A stretch of 36,402 bases of DNA, taken from contig JALSIX010000149.1 of the NCBI GenBank assembly GCA_026989655.1, positions 1-36,402 on the forward strand, written 5' to 3'. The position numbers and the translations under genes are program-made. The notes beneath the pieces are model-generated. The model saw nothing but the letters and a program-made list of their open reading frames with translations, made no database searches and was not told the origin of the DNA. Below are positions 1,780-9,426 of this stretch, piece by piece. Every line of letters begins with the position of its first letter. The first letter of the stretch is position 1. This DNA comes from Caldilineaceae bacterium. Its GTDB lineage: Bacteria > Chloroflexota > Anaerolineae > Caldilineales > Caldilineaceae.

Positions 1780-3102
1780 ATGGTCACCACATCCAGAATT
1801 CCGGAGCCGGTCCGGGAGACCCCCGCGCCGGCTCCTCCCCGTGTCCCCGCTCGGGCGGTGATCGAGCTGGAGGATCCCGTTCCCGCGCCCCTGCCGGAGC
1901 CCAGGGGCCTCTCCCCGGGGCCCATCCGCCAGGTCCACGTCTTCTGGCTGGCGGGCATGAGCTGCGACGGCTGTACCATCGCGGTCTCCGGGGCCACCAA
2001 TCCCAGCATCGAGGAGCTCCTCACGGCCAGCATTCCCGGCGTGCCCCGGGTTGTCCTCCACCATCCGGTCCTCTCCGTGGAGGCCGGCGAGGCCTTTGTG
2101 CACCACTTCGAGCTGGCCGCGGAGGGAGAGCTGGACGATCCTTTCGTGGTGGTCTACGAGGGCTCGGTGCCGAACGAGGAGCTCGCCGCCCAGACCGGTG
2201 GCTACTGGTCTGCCCTGGGGGTGCGCTGGGAGGGCGACCAGCCCCGGCCCATCTCCACCGCGGAGTGGCTCCGGCGCATGGCCCCGGCAGCCGCGGCCGT
2301 CATCGCCATCGGCACCTGTGCCACCTGGGGGGGTGTGCCCGCGGCCATCGGCAACCCCACAGATGCCATGGGGGTCATGGACTTCCTGGGGCCGGACTAC
2401 CGGAGCGCCCTGGGGTTGCCGGTGATCAACATCCCGGGATGTGCGCCGGTGGGGGACAACTTCACCGAGACGGTGGCCGCCATCCTCCTCTTCCTCCAGG
2501 GGCTGGGCCCGCTGCCGGAATTCGATGAGCTGGGGCGGCCGGCCTGGCTCTTCCAGGAGACCGTCCACCGGGGATGTACCCGGGCGGGTTTCTACGAGGA
2601 GGGGGATTTCGCCGACCACTACGGCGATCGCCGTTGCCTGGTGGAGATCGGCTGCTGGGGGCCGGTGGTCAACTGCAACATCGCCCGTCGAGGGGCCATC
2701 AACCACATGGGAGGCTGCATGAACGTGGGGGGGATCTGCATCGGCTGCACCATGCCCGGCTTTCCCGATCGCTTCTCTCCCTTCTACCAGCGGCCACCGG
2801 GCACCCTGATCTCCTCCAGCGCCTCCCGGGTCCACGGGACCCTCATCCGGAACCTCCGTCGTCTCACCAACAAGTTCATGGATCGCTCTGTCCGGTGGGG
2901 GGAGGAGGGCGAGATGGCCACCGGATGGGGCGAGGTGCCCGGGCCCAACCTGCTGGAGCGCATCGGCCACCACATCTACCAGTGGATGCAGTGGCGGCTG
3001 GGAGGCGAGCCGGTGGGCCACGTGACCTTCTCCTCCTTCTACGGCCTGCCCCGCCCCCATGGGGAGCCCGAGGAGAAGGAGGACGAAGCACCGGAGACGT
3101 AG
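1780..3102 (+). CDS. [NiFe] hydrogenase small subunit, cytoplasmic uptake type
   Basis: The electron-transfer subunit, 440 residues. It should carry three Fe-S clusters that pass electrons from the Ni-Fe site of the large subunit. Cysteines follow the family pattern: C62 and C65 (SCDGC), C180 (GTCATWGG) and C221 (IPGC) for the proximal cluster; H263, C266, C286 and C292 for a second cluster; C299, C313, C320 and C323 in the remaining cluster region. There is no Tat signal and no C-terminal membrane helix, so the enzyme should sit in the cytoplasm. The first ~50 residues are a Pro-rich extension. The ATG at 1780 has AGGGAG at a good distance. Group 1h-type high-affinity enzymes, as I recall them, have CDGD at the first motif; here it is CDGC, so subgroup assignment (1h, 1l or other) is open. 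The large-subunit gene follows only after five small genes. Confidence 0.93.
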   Translation: MVTTSRIPEPVRETPAPAPPRVPARAVIELEDPVPAPLPEPRGLSPGPIRQVHVFWLAGMSCDGCTIAVSGATNPSIEELLTASIPGVPRVVLHHPVLSVEAGEAFVHHFELAAEGELDDPFVVVYEGSVPNEELAAQTGGYWSALGVRWEGDQPRPISTAEWLRRMAPAAAAVIAIGTCATWGGVPAAIGNPTDAMGVMDFLGPDYRSALGLPVINIPGCAPVGDNFTETVAAILLFLQGLGPLPEFDELGRPAWLFQETVHRGCTRAGFYEEGDFADHYGDRRCLVEIGCWGPVVNCNIARRGAINHMGGCMNVGGICIGCTMPGFPDRFSPFYQRPPGTLISSSASRVHGTLIRNLRRLTNKFMDRSVRWGEEGEMATGWGEVPGPNLLERIGHHIYQWMQWRLGGEPVGHVTFSSFYGLPRPHGEPEEKEDEAPET

Positions 3103-3129: not shown

Positions 3130-3423
3130 ATGGACGATGCCGCCCTGTTGGCGATCTGGCTTCGCCTCCTGGCCGTGGCCGGGCTGGTGGTGCTCCTCGC
3201 GGTGATCCTGCTGTGGCGGGTCATCCGAGCGGTCCGACGCATCGAGCGGCTGGCCGCCCGGGCCCTCCAGGTCGCGCAGGAGATCCAGGACCAGACCGGG
3301 GCCATCTGGGAGCTCCAGCAGACCAACCGGATGGCCGCACAGCTTCGGGATGCGGCCCAGCAGGTGGAGCAGCACGCGACGGAGGTGGTGTCCGTGCTGC
3401 ACGAGCCCCAGGAGCCGGCCTAG
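3130..3423 (+). CDS. Small single-pass membrane protein 1 of hydrogenase operon (group A)
   Basis: A 97-residue protein of unknown family, with AAAAGGAGG just before its ATG. Residues ~7-29 form one hydrophobic helix. The basic stretch WRVIRAVRRIER follows, which by the positive-inside rule puts the C-terminus in the cytoplasm. The rest is a long, mostly alpha-helical amphipathic tail rich in Gln, Ala and Glu. It resembles the proteins at 3442 and 4088 in layout and in short matches (RRIER, TNRMA), so it is probably a paralogue. It lies between hydrogenase small and large subunit genes. A scaffold or quinone-access role, like HucM of mycobacterial Huc hydrogenase, is inference only. Confidence 0.82.
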   Translation: MDDAALLAIWLRLLAVAGLVVLLAVILLWRVIRAVRRIERLAARALQVAQEIQDQTGAIWELQQTNRMAAQLRDAAQQVEQHATEVVSVLHEPQEPA

Positions 3424-3441
3424 CTTCGGAAGGAGGTGCCC

Positions 3442-3798
3442 ATGGAAGCCTTGTCCTCCCAGGTGAGCCCTGGAACGGTCTACCTGGTCTGGGGGGTCTC
3501 CCTTCTCCTGGCCCTGGTGGTGACCGCTGTGGTGGCCTATCTGCTCCGTCAGATCGAGCGGACGGCCCGCCGGATCCACCACACCGTGGCCGAGATCTGG
3601 ACCACAGGCCAGCAGATCGCGGCCGCCACCATCCACATCCCCGATCTGGCCATCACCAACCGCATGGTGGACGAGATCCACGCGGCCGGGGGGCGGATCC
3701 TGGAGGCCGCGGCCGCCATCCACGAGCACGCAGAGAGCTGCCCAGGGTGTCCCCAGTGTGTCCTGGGCCGTGCCCAGAGCCCAGGAGGTGCTCCGTGA
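3442..3798 (+). CDS. Small single-pass membrane protein 2, Cys-rich tail (group A)
   Basis: 118 residues. I place the start at the ATG 3442, six bases after AAGGAGG; a GTG at 3436 lies inside that ribosome binding site. Residues ~13-35 form the membrane helix, followed by LLRQIERTARRIHH and a helical cytoplasmic tail containing ITNRMVDEIHAAG, matching TNRMA in protein 1. Unlike the other four it ends with C100-P-G-C103-P-Q-C106, a CxxCxxC motif that could bind zinc or an Fe-S centre or form disulfides. The stop overlaps the next start (GTGA). Function unknown; association with the hydrogenase is inferred from position. Confidence 0.82.
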   Translation: MEALSSQVSPGTVYLVWGVSLLLALVVTAVVAYLLRQIERTARRIHHTVAEIWTTGQQIAAATIHIPDLAITNRMVDEIHAAGGRILEAAAAIHEHAESCPGCPQCVLGRAQSPGGAP

Positions 3799-4091
3799 TC
3801 GTCCTGTTGACCCTGCTCTCCGCCCTGGCCGTCCTCCTCTTCGTGGGCGTGTTGGCCTTCTACCTGTGGCGGATCTCCACCCTGCTCATGGCCATCGGCG
3901 GCGCGCCCACCAGCTACCTGGCCAAGCTCCGCCTGGGCCTCCGGGCCATCGAGACCGAGACCGGCCACCTGGGGGGGCAGGTGGAGCGCCTGAACGGCCG
4001 GCTGGCCTCCCTGGCCCAGGCCCTTCAGGCGGTGGACCATCACCTGGTGGCCACCATCGAGGCCGTCAAACGACAGGAGGGCCAGCCATGA
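3795..4091 (+). CDS. Small single-pass membrane protein 3 (group B)
   Basis: 98 residues from a GTG start overlapping the previous stop, with AGGAGG six bases upstream, so it is translationally coupled. The membrane helix comes almost at once (residues ~2-24), then YLWRISTLL and a tail predicted as helix with regular Leu spacing. The tail pattern (T, then L, N, L, L, then AVDHHLVATIEAVKR) matches the end of the protein at 4414 (QVDANLLQIVRVLHR), so these two look like a second paralogous pair. It has no cysteines. Role unknown. Confidence 0.8.
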   Translation: MIVLLTLLSALAVLLFVGVLAFYLWRISTLLMAIGGAPTSYLAKLRLGLRAIETETGHLGGQVERLNGRLASLAQALQAVDHHLVATIEAVKRQEGQP

Positions 4092-4417
4092 ACGTGCCGG
4101 ACATCGTGTATACCGTCTGGGGACTCCTGCTCCTGGTGACCTTCCTCCTGGTCCTTCCCCTGGTGCTCTTCCTGCTCCACCGCACCTTCACCGCGGCCCG
4201 ATACATCGAGCACTACCTGGCCGGGATGGCCCAGGCGGGCCAGGGCATCGCGGAGAACACCCGGCCCGTCCAGGATCTGGAGGAGACCATCCAGGTGGCC
4301 GCCCAGATGTTGGAGGTCGCGGGCAACCTGGAGGCCCACACCCACACCATCGCGGTGGTCTTGGGACAGCGGGCCAACGGTGTCAACGGGACCGGGAAAG
4401 GGGGGCCGCAGGGATGA
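4088..4417 (+). CDS. Small single-pass membrane protein 4 (group A)
   Basis: 109 residues with ATG overlapping the previous stop and AGGAGG upstream. The first ~8 residues are polar, then a strongly hydrophobic helix (about 9-30, with LLLLVTFLLVLPLVLFLL), then HRTFTAARYIEHYLAG and a Gln/Ala/Glu-rich helical tail. The layout and the AARYIEH and IQVAAQMLEVAGNLEAH stretches parallel proteins 1 and 2. The last ~15 residues are Gly/Asn-rich and probably disordered. No enzyme motif is visible. Confidence 0.82.
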   Translation: MNVPDIVYTVWGLLLLVTFLLVLPLVLFLLHRTFTAARYIEHYLAGMAQAGQGIAENTRPVQDLEETIQVAAQMLEVAGNLEAHTHTIAVVLGQRANGVNGTGKGGPQG

Positions 4418-4680
4418 ACGCCCTGACCGCTCTGACCCTGGTCGCGGTGCTGGGGGTGGTGTTGGCCCTGGTCTACTACCTGGTGCGCATCATCCGAGCC
4501 CTGGACCGAGCTGGAGACCATCTGGAGGCCCTGGTGGCCGGGCTGGAGACCGTCCGCGATCACACCCGCCCCCTGCCCGAGCATCTGGCCACCATCAACC
4601 AGGCCCTGGGCCGGCTATGGGTAGGGCTACGGCAGGTGGACGCGAACCTGCTCCAGATCGTGCGGGTGTTGCACCGCTAG
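4414..4680 (+). CDS. Small single-pass membrane protein 5 (group B)
   Basis: 88 residues, start overlapping the previous stop (ATGA). Residues ~5-25 are the membrane helix, followed by VRIIRALDRAGDHLEALVAGLETV and a helical tail ending VDANLLQIVRVLHR, paralogous in pattern to protein 3. It ends 11 bases before the large-subunit gene, which has its own GGAGGGA site. As the last of five coupled genes it shows that the whole set is made together with the hydrogenase. Confidence 0.82.
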   Translation: MNALTALTLVAVLGVVLALVYYLVRIIRALDRAGDHLEALVAGLETVRDHTRPLPEHLATINQALGRLWVGLRQVDANLLQIVRVLHR

Positions 4681-4691
4681 GAGGGAGCCCT

Positions 4692-6566
4692 ATGTGTTTC
4701 AAGAACCTGCCCATCGAGTTCGACGCCCAGGGGCGCCCGCACCTGAAAGAGGGCGTGGCCGATCCCTACCGCTACACCGCCCGTTCCCTGGCCGAACAGG
4801 AGGACCGGATCCGAGAGCTGCTGGCCCGCAATGGCTACATCAAGTCCGTGGACTTCGACCCGGTCACCCGGGTGGCGGGTGCCCTGGCCTTCCACACGGT
4901 GGTGGACCTGCAGGAGCGGAAGGTCCTGGCAGCCAACTCCATGGCCACCCTGTTTCGGGGCTACGAGGTCATCCTCCGGGGGCGGGATCCCCGGGATGCC
5001 GCGTTCATCAGCTCCCGGGCCTGTGGGGTGTGCGGCGGTGTCCACGCGACCACCGCGGCCTTGGCCCTGGAGATGGCCCTGGGCGTCCAGCCTCCACCCC
5101 TGGGTGTGGTGGTGCGCAACATGCTGTTGGCCATGGAGTTCCTCTACGACCACCCCCTCCACCTCTTCCTGTTGGCCGGCCCGGACTACTCCCAGCAGAT
5201 GGTGGAGGCCACCACCCCCACGGTGTGGGCCAAGGCCCAGGAGGCCCCCGCGGCCGGGGAGGCCATCCACGGCTACCGGACCATCGGGGCCATCATGGCC
5301 GGCCTGAACCCCTTGACCGGCGAGCTCTACCTGGAGGCCCTCCACATGACCCGGGTGGCCCGGGAGGCCTACGTGGTCCTCGGCGGCAAGTACCCCCATC
5401 CCGAGACGGCCATCCCCGGGGGTGTCACCGCGACGGTGGATATCACCGCGCTGAACGAATACTACATGCGTCTCCAGCGCATCTTCGACTACAGCAAGAA
5501 GGTGGTGGCCATCTGGGACGACCTGTGCGACTTCTTCTACCAGGTGGATCCCCGCTACCGCCAGGTGGGCGCGCGGCCCAAACACCTGATCGACTCGGGC
5601 ATCTGGGACGATCCCGAGGCCTACGACGCCTCCTACGAGCACTGCAACGGGTGGGGCGAGCGCCGATGGGCCACCCCTGGCGTCATCGTGGACGGCGAGC
5701 TGGTCACCACCCGGCTCCAGGACCTCAACATCGGTCTGGAGGAGTTCGTGGAGCACTCCTACTACGAGATCTGGGACAGCTACCCCTTCCCCAAGGACCC
5801 GAACGGCGCGCCGCTGAGCCAGTACCACCCCTGGAACAAGGAGACCATTCCCAAACCCACCGGACAGAGCTGGAAGGAGCGCTACACCTGGGATACGGCC
5901 CCCCGCTGGGATCGGATCGCGATGGAGGCGGAGTGCACGGCCCGGCTCTGGAGCACCGCGGTGGCCCGCAAACTTCCCCACACCCGCTTCATGGAGTCCA
6001 CCGGGACCGGTCTGCGCATGTACCTGCCCAAAGGGAAGCTGCCGGAGATGGTGCTGGAATGGGAGGTGCCCGAGGACTGGAACGCGTTCGAACGCAACCG
6101 TGGTCGGGCCTACTGCATCCCCTACACGGCCCTGGTGGCCATGGACAACTGGCTCATAGCCCTGGACCTGCTCAAACAGGGCCGTGACCGGGTCCACACC
6201 CCCTTCGAGATCCCCCGGAAAGGTCTTCAGATCGGCGTCGGCTTCTGGGGGGCCGGTCGAGGCTACCTGACCCACCACGCGGTCATCGAACAGGGCCGGC
6301 TGTCCAACTACCAGATCATCACCCCCTCCACCTGGAACGCGTCGCCCCGGGATCCCTGGGGCCATCCCGGGCCCTACGAGGAGGCCGTGTTGAACACACC
6401 CATCCTGGAGGAGTACGAGAGCCCCGATGGGTACAAGGGCGTGGACATCCTCCGTACCATCCGAAGCTTCGATCCCTGCATGCCCTGTACCACCCACATC
6501 CACGTGGACGGCGCGGATCACGTGGTGGTGCGGGAGGTCAACACCTGCGCCTGTGGGGTCGAATGA
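4692..6566 (+). CDS. [NiFe] hydrogenase large (catalytic) subunit
   Basis: 624 residues carrying the Ni-Fe site where hydrogen is split. The N-terminal metal motif is RACGVCGGVH (C111, C114, H118) and the C-terminal one is DPCMPCTTH (C596, C599, H602). Four cysteines therefore bind the metals as in all [NiFe] enzymes. H602 is the usual cleavage point, so maturation should remove a 22-residue tail, matching the protease encoded at 7531. The start is the ATG at 4692 after GGAGGGAGCCC. The stop overlaps the next ATG. The motifs fit respiratory uptake (group 1-like) enzymes; subgroup needs a phylogeny. No hypABCDEF genes are seen, so they must lie elsewhere. Confidence 0.95.
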   Translation: MCFKNLPIEFDAQGRPHLKEGVADPYRYTARSLAEQEDRIRELLARNGYIKSVDFDPVTRVAGALAFHTVVDLQERKVLAANSMATLFRGYEVILRGRDPRDAAFISSRACGVCGGVHATTAALALEMALGVQPPPLGVVVRNMLLAMEFLYDHPLHLFLLAGPDYSQQMVEATTPTVWAKAQEAPAAGEAIHGYRTIGAIMAGLNPLTGELYLEALHMTRVAREAYVVLGGKYPHPETAIPGGVTATVDITALNEYYMRLQRIFDYSKKVVAIWDDLCDFFYQVDPRYRQVGARPKHLIDSGIWDDPEAYDASYEHCNGWGERRWATPGVIVDGELVTTRLQDLNIGLEEFVEHSYYEIWDSYPFPKDPNGAPLSQYHPWNKETIPKPTGQSWKERYTWDTAPRWDRIAMEAECTARLWSTAVARKLPHTRFMESTGTGLRMYLPKGKLPEMVLEWEVPEDWNAFERNRGRAYCIPYTALVAMDNWLIALDLLKQGRDRVHTPFEIPRKGLQIGVGFWGAGRGYLTHHAVIEQGRLSNYQIITPSTWNASPRDPWGHPGPYEEAVLNTPILEEYESPDGYKGVDILRTIRSFDPCMPCTTHIHVDGADHVVVREVNTCACGVE

Positions 6567-7096
6567 AGGGCAAGGTCCTGATCGCGGGGGTCGGATACAC
6601 CTACATGCGGGATCTCTCCGTGGGGCCGGTGGTGGTCTCCCGGCTGCAGCGCCTGGAGTGGCCCCCAGGGGTGGAGATCCAGGACCTGAGCTACGGCCCC
6701 ATCGCGGTGGTCCAATGGCTCCAGGAGCGTCCGCACGCCTTCCAACGAGCCTTCTTCGTGGCCGCGGTGGAGCGGGGACGCCCCTCGGGTCGGCTCTACC
6801 GATATCGTTGGGCGGGCCATCTTCCCCCCCCGGAGGAGATCCAGCAGCGGATCGGGGAAGCGGTCACCGGGGTCATCAGCCTGGACAACCTGCTGATCAT
6901 CGCCCAGCACTTCCAGGTCCTTCCCCCCGAGGTCATGGTGATGGAGGTAGAGCCGGTGGACACCCAGTGGGGACCGGGATTCACGGCCCCGGTCCAGGAC
7001 GCGACCGAGGCAGCGATGGCCTGGATCCGGGAGATGGTGCTCCACAAGCGACGGCCTGTCTCCCATCCCGGCTCCCCACGGGCTTTCCGGGCCTGA
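6563..7096 (+). CDS. Hydrogenase maturation protease-like protein with lost metal ligands
   Basis: 177 residues, translationally coupled to the large subunit. The fold signature of HycI/HybD-type proteases can be followed: VLIAGVGY for the usual VLGxGN, RDLSVGP for xDDGxG, and VLPPEVMVMEVEP where the family has LPxxVxxxGxxP. However, by eye alignment each of the three residues that bind nickel in HybD is replaced: the Glu/Asp of the first loop by Leu, the Asp after the second strand by Ala, and the His by a non-ligand. It is therefore probably not a protease but a retained paralogue, perhaps a chaperone or docking factor. The intact protease is two genes downstream. Confidence 0.75.
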   Translation: MKGKVLIAGVGYTYMRDLSVGPVVVSRLQRLEWPPGVEIQDLSYGPIAVVQWLQERPHAFQRAFFVAAVERGRPSGRLYRYRWAGHLPPPEEIQQRIGEAVTGVISLDNLLIIAQHFQVLPPEVMVMEVEPVDTQWGPGFTAPVQDATEAAMAWIREMVLHKRRPVSHPGSPRAFRA

Positions 7097-7115: not shown

Positions 7116-7514
7116 ATGACGGAGGGACCGGAGCCCAGGCCGGCAAGGGGGTCGGAGGGGGACGATCCCCTGGAGCTGTTGAAGTGGCAGGACGAACTCC
7201 TGCAGATCCTCTACTGGTATCGGGGGGAGGGGTTGGGCCAGGTGGTGGAGCCCCGAGATCTCCGGCCCTTTCTCCCGGCCGAGGAGGCCCAGATCCGGTT
7301 CCACCTGGAGCGGCTGGTGGACCAGGGCTACGTCCAGCGGGTGGTGGAGGGCCAGGGGATCGGCTATCGGCTCACGGAACAGGGCGTGGCGGAGGGAGGA
7401 CGCCGTTTCGCGGACGCGTTCGCCGGGTTGACCGGCCAGGCCCATGGCGAATGCAACGATCCGGACTGCGCGTGCAAGGTCTTCGGGCCCGAGGCCTGCG
7501 GACATCGGCCCTGA
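7116..7514 (+). CDS. Winged-helix-like protein with Cys/His-rich tail
   Basis: 132 residues. The middle (about 20-95) looks like a winged helix: helices around LLKWQDELLQILYWY and EEAQIRFHLERLVDQGYVQRV, then the wing GIGYRLTEQG. The C-terminus has H110, C113, C118, C120, C128 and H130 (CNDPDCAC then ACGH), a compact potential metal site. It lies between the two protease-like genes and starts after GGAGGGGAG. A metal- or redox-responsive regulator of the operon is a reasonable guess; a hydrogenase assembly factor that uses a winged-helix fold is the alternative. I do not recognise a named family. Confidence 0.75.
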   Translation: MTEGPEPRPARGSEGDDPLELLKWQDELLQILYWYRGEGLGQVVEPRDLRPFLPAEEAQIRFHLERLVDQGYVQRVVEGQGIGYRLTEQGVAEGGRRFADAFAGLTGQAHGECNDPDCACKVFGPEACGHRP

Positions 7515-7530
7515 TCCGGGGGTGCCCAGC

Positions 7531-8028
7531 ATGGGACGGGTGCTGGTCGCGTGCATGGGGAACATGCTGCGTCGGGACGACGGCTTCGGCGTGGCCGTGG
7601 CCCAGCGGCTGCGGGCGCGGATCCCCTGGCCCGAGCAGGTGCAGGTGGTGGAGGTGGGCATCGGCGGCATCCATCTGGTCCAGGAGCTGATGGCGGGATA
7701 CGACGCCCTGGCCATCGTGGACGCGGTGGACCGCCAGAGCCCGCCGGGGACCGTCCACGTCCTGGAGGTCCAGGTGCCGGACCTGTCCCAGTGGCCCCGG
7801 GAGCAGCAGGAGGACTTCCTGGCCGACATGCACTACGCGACGCCGACCAAGGCCATGATCCTGGCCAAGGCCCTCCAGATCCTGCCGCCCAAGGTCTTCA
7901 TTGTGGGATGTCAACCCGCGGACACGGAAAGCCTGGAGATCGGCCTGAGCGCGCCGGTGGCGCAGGCCATCGAGCCCACGGTCCGGGCCTTGGTGTCCTT
8001 TCTCGAGACGGTGGTGGATCCGCCATGA
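7531..8028 (+). CDS. [NiFe] hydrogenase maturation endopeptidase (HycI/HyaD/HupD family)
   Basis: 165 residues. This nickel-dependent protease trims the C-terminal tail of the large subunit once nickel is in place. Visible family features are VLVACMGNMLRRDDGFGV at the N-terminus (D17 at the first ligand position), AIVDAVD (second ligand Asp), DMHYAT (ligand His) and LPPKVFIVGCQP. I start at ATG 7531, where the conserved MGRVLVA begins; an upstream in-frame ATG at 7444 lies inside the preceding gene. The ribosome binding site is weak (GGGGGTG). Its presence beside a large subunit with a cleavable tail makes the role firm. Confidence 0.9.
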   Translation: MGRVLVACMGNMLRRDDGFGVAVAQRLRARIPWPEQVQVVEVGIGGIHLVQELMAGYDALAIVDAVDRQSPPGTVHVLEVQVPDLSQWPREQQEDFLADMHYATPTKAMILAKALQILPPKVFIVGCQPADTESLEIGLSAPVAQAIEPTVRALVSFLETVVDPP

Positions 8029-8226
8029 GCGGCCCGCGGCCCCGGTTCCCATCCCGGCCCGCAGGTCTTCCGGGTGGGTCGCGCGGGAAACATGTTCCGG
8101 GCTTTGCCGGGGCCCGGAGCGGCCGCCCCCCTGCCGGGGGTGACGGCAGGACTTGGTCCTGACGTCTTGGTCCCCTTCGGGTTCGCCCCTCTCGACGGTG
8201 CAGTCGGTTCACAGCAGCGAGATCCC
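8029..8226 (+). other. Intergenic segment with GC hairpins
   Basis: 198 bases between the protease and the HTH-CooC gene. There is a run CCCCC (8127-8131) that can pair with GGGGG (8136-8140) around TGCC. No promoter stands out. The hairpin could lower read-through into the downstream gene. Confidence 0.3.
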
Positions 8227-9426
8227 ATGGCCCCGGAGACCTCCCTGGCCCACACTCTGCGGAAGGCCCGGCTCCGACATGGCCTCACCCAGGTCCAGTT
8301 GGCCGCTCGGGTGGGGGTCAGCCAGGGGACCATCTCCTTCTGGGAGAACGGGGTCCAGACGCCCACCGTGGAGCACGTGATCGCCCTGGCCCTGGTCTTC
8401 CCCGAGATCGTGGAGAGCTTCCAGGGGCGAGAACGGGCCCTGCTGCAGCGGCTGTTGGTGTTGGAGCGGGAGCTGTTCGAGGGAAAGTGTGCCTGCCGAC
8501 GATGTCCGTGTGCCGAGGATGCGGAGGAGGGGGCACGGGCCTCGGCAGGGGAGAGGTGTGGAGAGGAGATGGAAAGGAGGGGAATTCCCATGAAGATCGC
8601 GGTGGCCGGGAAGGGCGGTGTGGGCAAGACCACGGTGGCCGGCACCCTGGCCCGGGCGTTGGCCCGGGAGGGCCGACGGGTTCTGGCCCTGGACGCGGAC
8701 TCGAATCCGAACCTGGCCATTGGCCTGGGCATCTCCCGTCAGGCGGTGGACGAGCTGGCCCAGGTGCCGTCGGGCCTGACCGAGTGGCGCCGGGATCCCC
8801 AGGGGCGGGCCTACGTCCACCTGCGCCAGCCCGTGTCCCGGCTCATCCAGGACTACAGCATCCCTGCGCCGGATCGGGTGCGTCTGATGATCATGGGCAA
8901 GGTGGTGGAGGCCAGTGTAGGGTGCCGCTGCGAGGCCCATGCCGTGGCCCGGGGCATCACCGGCCATCTGTTGACCCATGCCCGAGCCAACGGCGGGGCC
9001 CAGCCGGAGACGGATGCCCCGGCCGTGGACGTGGTCATCCTGGACATGGAGGCCGGGCTGGAGCACCTGAGCCGGGGCACGGCCGAACACGTGGACCTGC
9101 TCCTGGTCCTGGTGGAACCTTACTACCGGGCGCTGGAGGCCGGCCGCCGGAGCCACGAGCTGGCCACCCAGCTCGGTGTGCCCCGGATCTGGGTGGTGGC
9201 CAACCGGGTCCGCACCCCGGAGGAGGGCAGGGCCGTGGAGGCCTTCTGCCAGCGCTACGGCCTGGAGCTGGCAGCCACCATCCCCTTCGACGAGGCCGTC
9301 CTCGCCGCGGAGCAGGCGGACCGGGCGCCCATCGACCACGCTCCCCACAGCGCCGCGGTCCAGGCCATCCTTGCGCTGGGCCGGCAACTGTCCCCCCTCA
9401 TCCATTCCGGGATTGTGGAAGGCTGA
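8227..9426 (+). CDS. XRE-type HTH joined in frame to CooC-type nickel-insertion ATPase
   Basis: One open frame of 399 residues. Residues ~5-65 are a Cro/CI-like helix-turn-helix (LRKARLRHGLTQVQLAARVGVSQGTISFWENG), then a linker with KCACRRCPC. From M122 (base 8590) a complete SIMIBI-class ATPase begins: deviant Walker A GKGGVGKTT with signature Lys K8 of that domain, LALDADSNPNLA, and a GCRC motif whose cysteines are C112 and C114 counted from M122. The same CxC position binds nickel in CooC1 of CO dehydrogenase maturation. The likely job is nickel delivery to the hydrogenase. A very strong ribosome binding site lies right before base 8590, so a separate 278-residue ATPase is probably made too or instead. 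The start at 8227 is less certain. Confidence 0.85.
   Translation: MAPETSLAHTLRKARLRHGLTQVQLAARVGVSQGTISFWENGVQTPTVEHVIALALVFPEIVESFQGRERALLQRLLVLERELFEGKCACRRCPCAEDAEEGARASAGERCGEEMERRGIPMKIAVAGKGGVGKTTVAGTLARALAREGRRVLALDADSNPNLAIGLGISRQAVDELAQVPSGLTEWRRDPQGRAYVHLRQPVSRLIQDYSIPAPDRVRLMIMGKVVEASVGCRCEAHAVARGITGHLLTHARANGGAQPETDAPAVDVVILDMEAGLEHLSRGTAEHVDLLLVLVEPYYRALEAGRRSHELATQLGVPRIWVVANRVRTPEEGRAVEAFCQRYGLELAATIPFDEAVLAAEQADRAPIDHAPHSAAVQAILALGRQLSPLIHSGIVEG
8573..8592 (+). promoter_or_regulatory. Internal ribosome binding site and start for free CooC-like ATPase
   Basis: AAAGGAGGGG (8573-8582) lies seven bases before ATG 8590, inside the longer HTH-ATPase frame. It is better than any site near 8227. 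The protein from this ATG begins exactly at the conserved MKIAVAGKGGVGKTT, as free CooC proteins do. Confidence 0.7.

Follow-up and report, generated by a model that had tools for sequence, protein, structure and literature searches.

Five small membrane-protein genes of two sequence subfamilies lie between the subunit genes of a group 1l (Hyl) [NiFe]-hydrogenase in a Caldilineaceae bacterium

Group 1l (Hyl) hydrogenases let bacteria live on traces of H2, which these enzymes oxidise widely in soils and in seawater. We found no account in the literature of the route by which electrons pass from group 1l enzymes to the respiratory chain. A 36,402-nucleotide stretch of a Caldilineaceae genome (contig JALSIX010000149.1; hereafter the window) encodes five small membrane proteins exactly between the two subunits of a hydrogenase.

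On the forward strand, hylS (1780..3102) encodes a 440-aa [NiFe]-hydrogenase small subunit matching Pfam Oxidored_q6 and NiFe_hyd_SSU_C, and hylL (4692..6566) encodes a 624-aa large subunit (Pfam NiFeSe_Hases, 255 bits). The open reading frames at 3130-4680 confirmed that five membrane-protein genes of 88-118 codons lie between the S and L genes on the same strand. These are hylTM1 (3130..3423, 97 aa), hylTM2 (3442..3798, 118 aa), hylTM3 (3795..4091, 98 aa, GTG start), hylTM4 (4088..4417, 109 aa) and hylTM5 (4414..4680, 88 aa), all encoding single-pass membrane proteins, of which TM1, TM2 and TM4 are designated A-type and TM3 and TM5 B-type. An 18-nt gap separates TM1 from TM2 and the other three of the four junctions are 4-nt overlaps, in line with the initial annotation that most of the genes overlap. 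That annotation also gave every gene a ribosome binding site; a GGAGG-type site is clear for TM1 to TM4, but TM5 has no clear site. S, TM1 and TM2 share one reading frame through TAG. None of TM1-5 had a match above any Pfam or NCBIfam cut-off, and neither library identified a b-type cytochrome or Fe-S domain in them; in Pfam, TM1 matched DUF948 and holins weakly, under all cut-offs, and these matches were discarded. In the source genome, these five genes were the only matches to the A- and B-type profiles.

Downstream, on the same strand, are genes for a 177-aa hydrogenase maturation protease-like protein (6563..7096; TIGR00072, 59.7 bits against a cut-off of 47.45), a 132-aa small winged-helix-like operon protein (7116..7514; weak PaaX and ArsR-like matches only) and a hydrogenase maturation protease of the HycI/HupD family (7471..8028, in a frame that opens at 7444; PF01750, 64 bits; TIGR00072, 114 bits). 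A 450-aa open frame follows (8074..9426), combining an HTH at the N-terminus with a MinD/CooC-type NTPase (HTH_3 and CbiA matches); its product, judged by these domains, is likely a regulator combined with a Ni-insertion ATPase. The operon holds two different maturation-protease-like genes, and the product of the more divergent one, at 6563-7096, may have an altered function. Here the HTH and the MinD/CooC-like NTPase form one frame; at another locus (L116), similar genes do not share a frame and are encoded on opposite strands.

The window HylL is 63% identical to that of Hymenobacter roseosalivarius, a bearer of a group 1l enzyme, and 75% identical to the nearest HylL in the collected set. 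In the HylL tree, whose root is unsure because there is a single distant outgroup, the window protein groups with the H. roseosalivarius HylL, apart from that 1h-like outgroup, among a five-gene majority that includes both. The H. roseosalivarius locus (L044) carries the same cassette in the same S-TM1-5-L order, and the present locus is a Chloroflexota example with nothing essential different. A run of five short TM proteins separating S from L is the published group 1l arrangement (PMC9561532, citing Ortiz 2021) and is what is found at this locus. The initial annotation, which referred to reports of one or two membrane proteins in group 1l clusters and regarded five as more than was known, was borne out in its link to group 1l but not in the number, five being already in print. 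The arrangement is thus genuine, found widely and already in print, and the locus is a further example of a group 1l (Hyl) hydrogenase; what we add is the A/B composition, the variation in chain number and the cassettes that stand alone. We found no description of the A/B subfamilies or of the 2-, 4- and 9-gene versions in the accessible literature.

Among solved structures, the closest by sequence to both subunits is the group 1h AH of Cupriavidus necator (PDB 5aa5), with HofK as the best match of HylS (380 bits) and HofG as that of HylL (508 bits); Huc scores far below 5aa5. In group 1h, the S and L genes are adjacent, and the same source describes no HylTM cassette for it (PMC9561532). Isp-type hydrogenases of groups 1e/1g resemble Hyl in having membrane-protein genes between S and L, but there these encode a b-type cytochrome (Isp1) and an Fe-S protein (Isp2) (PMC11018855), whereas the HylTM proteins are single-pass helices without such domains.

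A scan with HylL yielded 80 loci; both S and L are present in 69 loci, the window included. The exact order TM1-2-3-4-5 was found between S and L in 56 of the 69, spanning Chloroflexota, Bacteroidota, Pseudomonadota, Gemmatimonadota, Acidobacteriota, Actinomycetota, Deinococcota, Myxococcota and SAR324. This recurrence of identical genes in identical order indicates that the arrangement is not due to chance. Shorter versions have four genes, placed either in the S-L interval (L039, L042) or upstream of S where S and L adjoin each other (L043, L061, L063, L077, L078, L081), or only two genes (L019, L022). In the HylL tree, the four-between form and the two-gene form each make up one group, and the four-upstream form appears in separate places.

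Profile comparison joined TM1, TM2 and TM4 at 98.6-98.9% and TM3 with TM5 at 98.9%, and a tree of 110 proteins separated A (TM1, TM2, TM4) from B (TM3, TM5) with support of 100/100. By these comparisons, HylTM1-5 are paralogues of two subfamilies, A and B. The operon orders observed are AB, ABAB, AABAB and AABABABAB, the minority forms being assigned by profile. By inspection, most share a mid-tail motif centred on a conserved Thr with a Leu/Ile after it.

Each of the five proteins has a single N-terminal hydrophobic segment, as initially annotated; across the family, this helix starts within ~13 residues of the N-terminus and is followed by 63-76 residues (medians). As to the basic anchor initially annotated in all five, the family-wide charge after the helix is positive on average, strongly so in TM1, TM4 and TM5 but weakly in TM2 and TM3. 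In all five tails, hydrophobicity has a period of 3.4-3.55 residues, matched by 0-2 of 500 shuffles, and the B tails follow strict 3-4 heptads. AlphaFold2 models placed helices at 2-50 and 55-87 in TM5 (pLDDT 85; break at 51-54) and at 10-63 and 66-99 in TM2 (pLDDT 85; break at 64-65), so that each of these two tails consists of two helices. The long helical tail of the initial annotation is not one continuous helix, both models being broken in mid-tail. Because of this break, the modelled tails may form hairpins only ~45-50 Å long, not a 90 Å tube. Foldseek with the TM2 model returned no match, and PDB matches of the B-type profile to designed coiled-coil barrels were rejected as homology on account of their heptad composition.

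The RRxFxK (Tat) motif is absent from HylS and from all 69 homologous S frames, in agreement with the initial view of a hydrogenase without a Tat signal. In the alignment of these frames, 11 Cys of HylS are kept in 98-100% and the C-terminal extension is conserved. The missing motif together with the retained cysteines suggests that the enzyme is likely cytoplasmic.

We consider it probable that the A and B chains form a single hetero-oligomeric bundle of helices, which would dock cytoplasmic HylSL at the membrane. HylS and HylL would remain in the cytoplasm; each HylTM would span the membrane once near its N-terminus, and its helical tail, ~65-75 residues long and in two parts, would reach into the cytoplasm, where A tails would pair with B tails to form the bundle. 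Docking, probably via the extended HylS C-terminus, would then let H2 electrons reach the quinone pool. Pairwise distance correlations were 0.58-0.76 for TM-TM pairs against 0.29-0.50 for TM-L pairs, partly reflecting shared ancestry; together with A/B paralogues in fixed order and coiled-coil tails, these higher TM-TM values favour one hetero-oligomer. A hetero-oligomer tied to the hydrogenase, as the initial annotation had proposed, is thus supported by cross-phylum synteny, A/B paralogous chains, coiled-coil tails and the lack of a Tat motif in S/L. What is observed is the set of genes and its conserved order, the paralogy within A and B, the coiled-coil periodicity and the missing motif; from these we infer the assembly of HylTM with each other and with HylS, the C-in topology and the position of the enzyme at the membrane. 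Three things speak against the bundle: the helix break in the tails, the lack of sequence kinship with HucM described below, and the five- and nine-gene cassettes that stand alone, with no adjacent hydrogenase, in three genomes from a single class.

The most speculative step, which we advance tentatively by analogy with HucM and Huc, as the initial annotation did, is that the bundle would be a hydrophobic conduit giving quinone access to HylS. In Huc (group 2a), S and L are likewise not exported and a helical coiled-coil protein joins the enzyme to the membrane; however, this is a single protein, HucM, which forms a homotetrameric tube and is peripheral to the membrane (PMC10017518), whereas HylTM comprises five different TM proteins. 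The same organism carries both Hyl and a Huc with a true HucM. In that Huc-type locus (L087 6494-10042; G000:C88), the HucM homologue (DUF1641; 7uus_Q, E 1.9e-13) is encoded upstream of the small subunit. Comparison of HylTM with this HucM by hhalign gave probabilities of 0.1 and 2.1%; the A-type profile did not match HucM (7uus_Q) among PDB sequences and had no match to E 10, and HucM was not among the 60 PDB matches listed for the B-type profile. HylTM thus appears unrelated to HucM in sequence, and Hyl may work like Huc without belonging to the Huc family.

This lack of kinship with HucM would also suit a plain membrane tether, in which the bundle takes up no quinone and HylS electrons leave by way of another, quinone-reactive protein whose gene lies elsewhere; tails with the conserved break may fold back near the membrane and place HylS there directly. 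However, the genes examined, those from S to the NTPase, include neither a cytochrome b nor a ferredoxin-like partner, and five conserved paralogues are not obviously needed for a plain tether, which makes this account rather unlikely in our view. We regard it as improbable that the HylTM proteins are assembly, insertion or stability factors outside the working enzyme: cassettes can sit upstream of S or apart from hydrogenase genes, but in most relatives the S-L position and overlapping genes point to stoichiometric co-synthesis, and the maturation proteases are separate downstream genes. The C-terminal H-x3-CPGCPQC of TM2 (3727-3759) is a possible metal site, the other four proteins having almost no cysteine. 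An electron relay through a metal centre at this motif, passing HylS electrons to the membrane, is very improbable, since H-x3-CPGCPxC, although present in 42 of 59 five-gene loci, is missing in the other 17, including the closest relative L007, and in all four- and two-gene versions, and is therefore not essential.

We surveyed 400 Chloroflexota genomes and the class of genome G231 for stand-alone cassettes, using an A-type match at 1e-5. The small genes were not mostly away from hydrogenases in Chloroflexota, an outcome that the initial annotation would have taken as a refutation: HylL adjoined them in 9 of the 12 genomes with an A-type match and was not adjacent in 3, which belong to one Chloroflexota class. 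Of these, G054 carries TM1-5 without an adjacent hydrogenase, and G231 and G413 carry arrays of nine genes, which include additional A-B pairs with long tails (190-205 aa), also without one, on short contigs that leave linkage to a hydrogenase past their ends possible. All three encode more distant hydrogenase subunits elsewhere in the genome (41-53% identical). At the level of loci, nine-gene arrays of HylTM relatives in the order AABABABAB occupy L113 5124-9215 and L124 456-4690 on contigs without hydrogenase genes; tails of 190-205 aa are found in the final four proteins of these arrays. A five-gene cassette without hydrogenase neighbours lies at L114 7643-10879; after it comes a gene for a multi-pass membrane protein built of repeated domains, for which no family match passed the cut-off.

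The A/B pattern provides a composition that can be tested: AB units and a single additional A. The two-gene systems (L019, L022) are minimal and should lend themselves better to expression and structure determination than the five-gene form. The presence of Huc and HucM in the same genome allows a direct comparison with Hyl. It is possible, if doubtful, that the modular A/B family (AB, ABAB, AABAB, AABABABAB) represents a membrane-spanning hetero-oligomeric stalk, of an origin independent of HucM, through which a soluble hydrogenase would gain access to quinone; in some lineages this stalk would be encoded away from the hydrogenase and might work with other oxidoreductases.
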